In this document: positions 4,414 through 8,731 of the stretch, piece after piece | How the letters are laid out: each line of letters starts with the position of its first letter | Position numbering within the stretch: position 1 is the stretch's first letter | Origin: a virus | Direction: 5' to 3' (one strand) | DNA length: 34,325 nt | IMG/VR virus record: IMGVR_UViG_3300040811_000096 | Location: 1-34,325 of that record | Program-made: the position numbers and the translations under genes | Notes under the pieces: generated by a model | Database searches by the model: none | Seen by the model: the letters and a program-made list of their open reading frames with translations, nothing else | Told to the model about the DNA's origin: nothing

Positions 4414-4423
4414 TGTCAACACA

Positions 4424-4453
4424 TTTATAGGGAAAATGTGGTACGTGTCGCAA
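4424..4453 (-). promoter_or_regulatory. Candidate promoter for the leftward operon
   Basis: On the minus strand TTGCGA (4453-4448) and TATAAA (4429-4424) are 18 nt apart, close to the bacterial sigma-70 pattern. Transcription would start only about 4 nt before the ATG at 4413, implying a nearly leaderless first message. No clear Shine-Dalgarno sequence precedes that ATG, which agrees with a leaderless start. Predicted from sequence alone. Confidence 0.35.
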
Positions 4454-4627
4454 ATACAGGTATTAGAGAGAGGAAACGAGGGAGGGTGCTACACTATAGA
4501 TGCTACACGTACCAGTTAGTAACACTTATTATAGTTATTACAGGAGAGAGTGTGTTACAAGAAACAGAGTAGCAGGTTATTTGCAACTTTGCAATAGTTA
4601 AATTTGCATATTTACAACTTTGCTAGT

Positions 4628-4753
4628 GTTATAACTTTTCCTATGTCCACTGATCCATTTACAACACTCAAAGAATAGTTATAACTTTCTATAGTTTCTA
4701 CTTTACTTATATGTATTACTTATTTAGAGAGTTAAAACACTTAATGTTATAAC
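4628..4753. repeat. Three GTTATAAC palindromes
   Basis: GTTATAAC occurs at 4628-4635, 4678-4685 (extended to the perfect 10-mer AGTTATAACT at 4677-4686) and 4746-4753. Spacings between centres are 50 and 68 bp. They sit in very AT-rich DNA on the side nearer the leftward operon, and could be protein-binding sites for control of that operon or of replication. Confidence 0.5.
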
Positions 4754-4824
4754 TATAGGCTGCTACTGCTACGCAGTTATATGGAAAAACACCCCCCTGT
4801 CAATCCCTAAAATGCTAAATCTTC

Positions 4825-4849
4825 ACATATTGTAACATATTGTAACATA
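4825..4849. repeat. Short tandem repeat, 10-bp unit
   Basis: The unit ACATATTGTA occurs twice head to tail (4825-4834 and 4835-4844), followed by a half copy ACATA. With one unit per roughly one helical turn it could be a small iteron-like site, or simply AT-rich slippage. Confidence 0.5.
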
Positions 4850-5112
4850 AAGTTACTACTAGATGGTCCATACACCCCCTGTGTACACGTTTTAGTTGCA
4901 TCCTCAAAAAGCCCCTTCTGTGTATTTGTACATATACGTAATACCACACACCCCCGGGTGGCCCTCGCACGGTGCCTTTCTAGGGTCATTCGTGCCAAAA
5001 TGCAGAAATAATAAGGTAAAACCCTGTTAAATCATTGAAATATATAGCTTTTATAAGTGCTATCTGATCAATTAATGCCGTATAGTGGTAAAAAAAGCTT
5101 ACCAATTTAGGG

Positions 5113-5227
5113 TGTGATCACAAAATAGAGAAACGTGTACGATATACCCACCTTGTGATCACAAATATATGCCACCCCTCATTATGTGATCACATTCCAT
5201 TTGTTGCATGTATCTTTTGTGATCACA
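5113..5227. promoter_or_regulatory. Operator array: four TGTGATCACA palindromes
   Basis: The perfect palindrome TGTGATCACA occurs at 5113-5122, 5154-5163, 5185-5194 and 5218-5227. Three copies extend further as perfect palindromes: TTGTGATCACAA (5153-5164), ATGTGATCACAT (5184-5195) and TTTGTGATCACAAA (5216-5229). Centres are 41, 31 and 33 bp apart, close to 4, 3 and 3 helical turns, so bound dimers would lie on about the same face of the DNA. A degenerate TGATCA is at 5065-5070. No ordinary coding constraint explains this; it is best read as a binding array for a phage or host regulator of the divergent operons. Confidence 0.75.
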
Positions 5228-5605
5228 AATGTAATACATTCCAGTAATTGCATGTTAGCTATAACATTCATGCATTCACATATATGAATACACTTATCTC
5301 ACGCTTTGTTTCACATTGTAACATTGTGTTACTGAAACAGAACAAAGTTGAAACACTCATAAGAACAAAACGTGAAATAGCTCTGGGACGCCCTAAAACG
5401 GCCCCTAGAAGCGCGAAAGCATTTTTTCCAAGGTCTAGATCATATTTTTGCGTTTGGCGTTTTGTACACTTTTGTTCTACTTTTGTTCTTTCTCGCGTAT
5501 ATATACATTATAAATATAAATAACATATTCACATATTCAGATATGTATTGACTGTTCACGAATTGTTACAAAGCAAAATTTTTTCTTGTTTCATACGTCA
5601 ATGTA

Positions 5606-5633
5606 TTGTCAACGTTCGATAGGCGGTAATGAT
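5606..5633 (+). promoter_or_regulatory. Candidate promoter for the rightward early genes
   Basis: TTGTCA (5606-5611) and TAATGA (5628-5633) are 16 nt apart, and about 37 nt separate the second box from the ATG at 5671. A second weak -35-like TTGACT lies at 5548-5553 without a good -10 partner. The match is modest, so this is a pointer rather than a firm call. Confidence 0.3.
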
Positions 5634-5670
5634 ATCGCATTCCAAAACTTGAATATAAGGATACACAAAA

Positions 5671-6327
5671 ATGAAAACTCAATTCGCAATCACCAATGAT
5701 GCAATCACACTCAATTCTTATGCGCGTGATGTTGCAGCTATCCGCGACATATCAGACGCTAAAAAATCTGTTGTGCCTGTTGTGCTATTTGTTCTGTCAA
5801 CAATCCAAGCGGGTCTATCAACATGCAAAGGCCAAATTGATGATGTAAACGAATTAGGCGCACAATCTCGCTTTATGTGGGGTCAAAAAGGTAATGGCCT
5901 AGAATACGCCAAGGCGCATGATGGTTTTCTATATGGCAAAATCAAACATATCGAACAAACATATGGCCTAGACAGCGTTGATGGGTGCGTTGAAGCTATC
6001 GAGCTATTTTTGAATGTGCCTAATCTCGGCATGGTTAAAGCTGCATTCGTTGCGCAGATGTTTGGTTTCAACGTTGCATGTATTGACAGTCATAATCTCA
6101 AACGCCTTGGCCTAAACGCAAACGCGGTAAAGCTTGGAAAGGTCAAACCCGCTACACGCCGCGCTAAAATTGCGGATTATGTCAAAATGACACAAATCCA
6201 AGGGTCCGCTTTTTGGTGGAATTCATGGTGCGATTTTGTGGCAGGAAACCGCGCCAACAAAGCTTTAGACAATGGCGACATTGTTTCACGCTATCACGTC
6301 GAATGCGTCGACGCGGTAAAAGTTTAA
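5671..6327 (+). CDS. HhH-GPD-like DNA glycosylase family protein
   Basis: A 218-residue protein with a ribosome site AAGGA about 9 nt before ATG 5671. Residues 112-141 (FLNVPNLGMVKAAFVAQMFG then FNVACIDSHN) resemble the helix-hairpin-helix and the catalytic VDTHV segment of EndoIII/MutY-type glycosylases. D139 would be the catalytic Asp. The lysine used by bifunctional lyases is not in its usual place (V122 there, K123 next to it), and no Fe-S cysteine cluster follows. It could therefore be a single-function glycosylase or a DNA-binding relative. As the first rightward gene it should be made very early. Arg codons are almost all CGC (7 of 8), unlike later genes. Fold is likely; activity is inferred. 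Confidence 0.65.
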   Translation: MKTQFAITNDAITLNSYARDVAAIRDISDAKKSVVPVVLFVLSTIQAGLSTCKGQIDDVNELGAQSRFMWGQKGNGLEYAKAHDGFLYGKIKHIEQTYGLDSVDGCVEAIELFLNVPNLGMVKAAFVAQMFGFNVACIDSHNLKRLGLNANAVKLGKVKPATRRAKIADYVKMTQIQGSAFWWNSWCDFVAGNRANKALDNGDIVSRYHVECVDAVKV

Positions 6328-8305: not shown

Positions 8306-8501
8306 ACGCATAGCAATAGCTGCATCCGTATTGATCAACGTCATATTGGGTGGATCATCAAACCAGACATTCTCTGCACGTAACAAGGTGTGGCAGAAAA
8401 ACAACAAACCAAACCTAGTCTGGTTAATAGACTTGATCTGTGGCAAGGATCATTGTACAGAGTGTTATGCCTACTGGCTAATTCGTAATCACAAATGGTA
8501 A
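8289..8501 (+). CDS. Conserved small phage protein with NQTFSARN motif
   Basis: A 70-residue protein with GGAG about 10 nt before ATG 8289. The N-terminal hydrophobic part (YLKRIAIAASVLINVILGG) leads into SSNQTFSARN, followed by PNLVWLIDLICGKDHCTECY. The h-LN-h-LGG-x-x-QTFSARN pattern occurs in many small proteins of tailed phages and prophages. One membrane segment is possible. Two cysteines plus a third (CGKDHCTEC) could bind metal. The function of this family is not known to me. Confidence 0.65.
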   Translation: MRNYLKRIAIAASVLINVILGGSSNQTFSARNKVWQKNNKPNLVWLIDLICGKDHCTECYAYWLIRNHKW

Positions 8502-8518
8502 AAACAGGAGAAAATACC

Positions 8519-8731
8519 ATGACAAATCAAAACCAAAAAATCCTTACTCACCTTCGTGCAACAAAGGGTCTAACCCTGCGTGAAGCAATGTTGGATTACT
8601 CTATCCAGTCGTTCACCAAGCGTATCTCTGAACTACGCAAAGCGGGTTACCGTATTGATGGTGTAAAGGGTAAGCACCCTGTGACTGGTCAACAGTACAC
8701 TCGCTATGTCTTGATTGAAGAGACTGCATGA
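8519..8731 (+). CDS. Winged-helix DNA-binding protein (HTH_39-like)
   Basis: A 70-residue protein. ATG 8519 has AGGAG 8 nt upstream and is preferred over an earlier start at 8495. The sequence QKILTHLRATKGLTLREAML, then QSFTKRISELRKAGYRIDG and a wing with YTRYVL closely fits the small winged-helix family known as helix-turn-helix domain 39. The first helix is about residues 6-14, the recognition part about 28-42. It should bind DNA. It is the only clear DNA-binding regulator in the window, so it is a candidate for the palindromes at 5113-5227; that link is inference. Confidence 0.75.
   Translation: MTNQNQKILTHLRATKGLTLREAMLDYSIQSFTKRISELRKAGYRIDGVKGKHPVTGQQYTRYVLIEETA

Follow-up and report, generated by a model that had tools for sequence, protein, structure and literature searches.

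Phased palindromes in the control region of a Roseobacter phage relative as probable operators of a host TCA-cycle regulator

Introduction

Several phages have promoters that read regulators of their host, among them LexA at CTXphi and coliphage 186 and IHF at Mu, and cAMP-CRP has effects on lambda. The control regions of such phages contain operators of a host regulator that reports the state of the cell. A second well-described design is that of the lambda-type OL/OR operators, in which clustered palindromes between divergent operons are phased for cooperative dimers. The locus described here shares features with both designs. Like OL/OR, it has clustered and phased palindromes between divergent operons, but their sequence is that of a host operator and no phage regulator gene tracks the sites. 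Like the LexA-, IHF- and CRP-reading phages, it appears to carry operators of a host regulator; however, the regulator would here be one of the TCA cycle, and the design is common to unrelated marine phage groups.

The closest described operators are those of AkgR, a GntR-family regulator of Rhodobacter sphaeroides, whose binding sites include GTGATCAC according to excerpts of PMC6365646. The same excerpts attribute AkgR operators in R. sphaeroides and other Alphaproteobacteria to Imam et al. 2015 and give 32% identity between R. sphaeroides AkgR and a GntR-like protein of Pseudomonas. AkgR is described as an activator in the literature excerpts searched. A related case is PS417_07240, a GntR-like protein of deoxyribonate catabolism in Pseudomonas simiae, whose proposed operator has the same GTGATCAC core; it differs from the present locus in that, in the excerpts of PMC6365646, the operator was proposed from sequence and is a single site in another organism and pathway. 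Judged by title, none of the searched papers naming AkgR appears to concern phages, and a search for the 10-mer TGTGATCACA returned unrelated subjects only.

Results

The four palindromes and their surroundings

The DNA analyzed here (the window) is a virus record of 34,325 nucleotides. Its DNA polymerase has 65-68% identity with those of Roseobacter phages CRP-603, CRP-2 and CRP-207 and 52% identity with that of HMO-2011. Judged by this similarity, the window is an HMO-2011-type podovirus and kin to the Roseobacter phages. The 34-kb record is probably a fragment because complete relatives are about 54 kb long. The closest isolates infect Rhodobacteraceae, a family to which the host of the window may also belong. 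The literature excerpts on this phage group count HMO-2011-type phages among the most abundant viral groups of the ocean and report lysogeny for CRP-3; the words "repressor" and "promoter" are absent from the same excerpts. An integrase is encoded in the window.

Four exact copies of TGTGATCACA, and thus of the GTGATCAC core of AkgR-type operators, were found at positions 5113-5227, and these are the only exact matches in the window (Table 1). A sequence-only reading had placed four palindromes between divergent operons, and this is confirmed. The extension to 12-14 bp that it gave for three of the four comes to 12 bp in copies 2 and 3 and 14 bp in copy 4, and copy 1 has none. In dinucleotide shuffles of the window, 0.06 copies were expected and none of 100 shuffles reached four, which rules out a chance origin. 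The centers of the palindromes are 41, 31 and 33 bp apart, i.e., 3.9, 3.0 and 3.1 turns of DNA at 10.5 bp per turn. The array lies inside an ORF-poor gap of about 1.25 kb between the leftward gene start at 4422 and the rightward gene start at 5671. Its distance to the start codon is 443 bp on the right and 690 bp on the left, more than for the corresponding sites in hosts. The same array recurs in contigs L002 and L071, which represent the same or a near-identical phage.

Table 1. Coordinates of the palindromes and neighboring features in the window
Feature	Position	Strand	Basis or remark
Palindrome copy 1, TGTGATCACA	5113..5122	no strand	exact match; no extension beyond 10 bp
Palindrome copy 2, 12 bp with flanks, TTGTGATCACAA	5154..5163	no strand	exact match
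Palindrome copy 3, 12 bp with flanks, ATGTGATCACAT	5185..5194	no strand	exact match
Palindrome copy 4, 14 bp with flanks, TTTGTGATCACAAA	5218..5227	no strand	exact match
Divergent control region without long convincing ORFs	4423..5670	no strand	ORF map; equivalent place in CRP-2, CRP-603, CRP-1 and CRP-345
First gene of leftward operon, 89 aa	4153..4422	-	next to the array in 41 of 69 non-redundant loci; matches neither Pfam nor PHROG
First gene of rightward early operon, 218 aa	5671..6327	+	no Pfam or PHROG match
HTH_39 winged-helix protein	8495..8731	+	Pfam HTH_39, E 3e-13
Second conserved block, TGTGTATTTGTACATATACGTA...CACCCCC..TGGCCCTCGC	4917..4975	no strand	alignment of 13 array-bearing relatives
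Third conserved block, TAA...TTGA.ATAT...TATAAGTG.TAT..TCAAT	5025..5072	no strand	alignment of 13 array-bearing relatives; putative promoter element

In the alignment, no part of the array region is as well conserved among distant relatives as the palindromes. The second conserved block (also seen at 3580-3640 of L107) is common to the control regions of the HMO-2011-type group, including that of the palindrome-free HMO-2011; TACRTATAYGTA, a near-palindrome, lies inside it, and the block might serve as a promoter or a further operator. A sigma-70 promoter scan of the gap gave two weak matches, fewer than the mean of shuffled sequences, and none of them at the third conserved block. HMO-2011 and CRP-1 have a common stretch with inverted repeats (TTTCG...CGAAA) directly before the early operon (L107 3960-4030, L113 3840-3920), a putative attP-like or RNA element.

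Arrays in other phages

Viral sequences were scanned for at least three copies of TGTGATCACA separated by gaps of 10-40 bp. Such arrays are carried by 99 viral contigs, and 69 arrays were left after removal of near-duplicates. The same scan returned no array for the reversed palindrome and none for TCTGATCAGA, a palindrome of equal composition that was added as a second control because many bacteria have few CTAG tetranucleotides and the reversed palindrome includes one. Two flanking bases on each side show a preference, with T before the palindrome and A after it.

The 149 spacings within the 69 non-redundant arrays fall at 20-26, 30-34 and 38-49 bp, mostly at 22-23, 30-33 and 39-44 bp, and none falls at 27-29 or 35-37 bp. 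A period scan of these spacings peaked at 10.4-10.5 bp (R 0.555, phase +0.3 bp, Rayleigh p ~1e-20), and the largest R at any period among 2000 random sets was 0.39. This phasing is strong evidence that the bound proteins lie on one face of the helix, and it supports the cooperative binding by a dimeric regulator that had been proposed from the window.

Arrays are found in at least three phage types that are unrelated to one another; for each of the three, the hosts of the nearest isolates belong to the Rhodobacteraceae. Type A consists of HMO-2011-type contigs with the 89-aa leftmost gene, whose closest isolates are CRP-603, CRP-2 and CRP-207; this gene is conserved from HMO-2011 to the window. 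The second type has a terminase closest to that of CRP-6 (81% identity in TerL), and the third has a structural gene closest to that of CRP-4 (84%, Cobavirinae). The expectation that close relatives would share the palindromes held in part. CRP-603 has four in its control region, 32, 46 and 31 bp apart, CRP-1 and CRP-345 have two each, 74 and 75 bp apart, and CRP-2 has one; in contrast, exact copies are absent from CRP-207 and HMO-2011, as they are from the more distant CRP-3, CRP-212, CRP-235, CRP-738 and HTVC033P and from CRP-4, CRP-5 and CRP-6. Other phages of the hosts of CRP-4 and CRP-6 have copies, whereas these two are palindrome-free, so the site is dispensable. By eye, the corresponding region of CRP-4 resembles decayed half-sites.

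Among the arrays that were read, all except that of L050 lie between genes. In L050, a contig of 67% GC, five copies of TGTGATCACA at 4804-4951 are located within a gene whose product is similar to phage O-type replication proteins and which is followed by a DnaC-like ATPase gene; these copies are possible iterons, and L050 may be an unrelated high-GC outlier. L053 and L098 have tandem copies of the palindrome with a 23-bp period and look unrelated as well.

The palindrome in host genomes

When genome contigs of 84,980 species were scanned for three copies, 11 places were found; six of these are in Rhodobacterales, and all six have 21-bp spacing. Four of the six (L127, L130, L132 and L134) were read directly as upstream regions of sucC. 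Repeats in Amycolatopsis and Opitutaceae look unrelated.

In 80 Rhodobacteraceae genomes, the palindrome occurs 394 times, compared with 155 times for the control palindrome of equal composition. Of 94 distinct host sites, 55 lie at most 350 bp upstream of sucC (33), sdhC (14), gntR (7) or fumC (1), where about 0.04% would be expected; the 94 are not a random sample, because they are the sites that were printed or fetched and paired sites were favored. The names of these four genes were confirmed by Pfam and NCBIfam. The distance from site to start codon is about 100-180 bp for sucC and about 10-18 bp for the GntR/FCD gene.

At a threshold of E<=1e-30, 72 of the 80 genomes encode a relative of the product of the latter gene (P0001), 69 of them with at least 65% identity. 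Among the 30 best copies of the gene, 24 have an exact palindrome directly upstream of their own start, and four more have one with a single mismatch. Genomes without the GntR/FCD protein have 1.9 palindromes on average and those with it have 5.3 (p 0.004), and the control palindrome is equally frequent in the two groups. We infer from its family, motif and targets that this host protein would be AkgR.

The layout of the sites differs between hosts and phages. Exact pairs at 21 bp were found in 46 of the 80 genomes of the family and in 2 of 190 genomes of the class, and 24 of 27 adjacent host pairs are 21 bp apart, whereas a spacing of 21 bp occurs in 0 of the 149 phage spacings. Read locus by locus, this spacing is seen almost always in hosts (L126-L134, L155-L224) and never in the phage arrays (L001-L098), which instead keep to multiples of whole turns. 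The contacts between dimers may thus differ in phages.

Candidate binding proteins

The sequence-only reading had named the HTH_39 protein and a host factor as candidate regulators. The HTH_39 protein was rejected: a 91% identical copy is encoded by CRP-207, which lacks the palindrome, and the fetched loci of the other two types (B and C), which have palindromes, yielded no relative of it. The product of the 89-aa gene was rejected likewise, since it is present in CRP-207 and HMO-2011 without the palindrome and was not found in the fetched type B and C loci. Among these two candidates, there is therefore no phage regulator that co-occurs with the sites. A search of 20 phage records, five of them complete isolates, gave no match to the GntR domain (PF00392). 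The evidence favors the host factor.

A CRP/FNR site was also rejected. The halves TGTGA and TCACA recall such a site, as had been noted, but a CRP-type site needs six bases between the halves and here the halves abut. CcrM methylates GANTC, which the palindrome lacks, so the CcrM-like methylation that had been considered does not apply to it. The idea of a new regulator is unsupported, because GTGATCAC is already reported as a GntR-family motif in the excerpts of PMC6365646.

Discussion

The four palindromes are likely to be operators of the host's AkgR-type GntR/FCD regulator of the TCA cycle, bound cooperatively and controlling the divergent transcription of the phage. In the mechanism that we propose, the AkgR-type host protein would bind the phage array, its dimers on the four sites would bind cooperatively along one face of the helix, and the bound dimers would control transcription of both divergent operons, so that phage gene expression would follow the carbon and energy state of the host. 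The likeness to AkgR operators lies in the core GTGATCAC palindrome, which in hosts stands upstream of sucC, sdhC, fumC and the GntR/FCD gene. The differences are that the sites are here on a phage, four in a row, spaced by 31-41 bp and not 21, and far from start codons. Our confidence is lowered by three of the observations, i.e., the absence of the 21-bp host spacing from phages, the relatives that infect the same hosts but lack the site, and the 443-bp distance to the start codon.

We infer that the AkgR-type protein has a role during infection, with activation, repression or titration as its possible effect. The array might be a decoy that titrates a scarce TCA-cycle regulator of the host and shifts host carbon flow in infection while driving no phage promoter. 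With only about five copies in a host genome, four copies per phage genome multiplied by replication could compete for the protein, and the strong conservation of the palindromes within the array region of distant relatives would fit such a role. However, a decoy could sit anywhere, whereas the type-A arrays are in the main control region and are helically phased, as expected for regulation of a neighboring promoter; we consider the decoy unlikely. Because of this phasing and position, a promoter function, i.e., activation, or repression until a metabolic signal changes, is preferred over mere titration. The third conserved block, about 40-90 bp to the left of the array, could be a promoter whose transcript runs into the array. 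This arrangement would mean repression, and AkgR has been called an activator.

A dimeric regulator encoded by the phage, in a role like that of CI or Cro, might also bind the palindromes, and their likeness to a host operator would then be copied or coincidental. The integrase of the window, the lysogeny reported for CRP-3 and a group literature whose searched excerpts mention no repressor leave room for such a protein, and conservation is seen both in the HTH_39 gene and in the 89-aa leftmost gene, which belong to the early or control region. The distribution of the two proteins does not follow that of the palindromes, however: CRP-207 has both and HMO-2011 has the 89-aa family, with no palindrome in either phage, and the fetched type B and C loci yielded neither. 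Moreover, three unrelated phage types would all need the specificity of one host regulator. We therefore regard a phage-encoded regulator as quite improbable. It is very improbable that the palindromes serve as origin iterons or as packaging sites instead of transcription operators, because the replication-gene copies of L050, which would fit it together with the tandem copies of L053 and L098, belong to a high-GC outlier that may be unrelated, the other arrays read are intergenic, and the same sequence marks TCA-cycle promoters of the hosts.

Control by the host's AkgR-type regulator, the reading that we prefer, suggests a virus wired to a host regulator of carbon metabolism in place of one of its own. 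On a wider scale, control of the main control region by the host TCA-cycle regulator may have arisen independently in several unrelated roseophage lineages, some from groups abundant in the ocean, through whole-turn arrays unlike the 21-bp layout of the hosts; the carbon state of the host would then decide when infection proceeds or whether lysogeny is chosen. We see the case for and against this broader view as evenly balanced. The reading of host regulators by a phage has precedents. The use of a TCA-cycle regulator through phased arrays in several unrelated roseophage groups would be new, as far as the searched literature shows. If true, the shared host operator in unrelated roseophages would offer a way to study how such phages switch on and would tie infection directly to the carbon metabolism of the host.

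One further observation concerns L019 (4196-4230) and also L089, in which a copy of TGTGATCACA adjoins TGTTTCACGTGAAACA near a terminase-like gene. We take TGTTTCACGTGAAACA to match the bacterial parS site, and it is possibly a second borrowed host operator.
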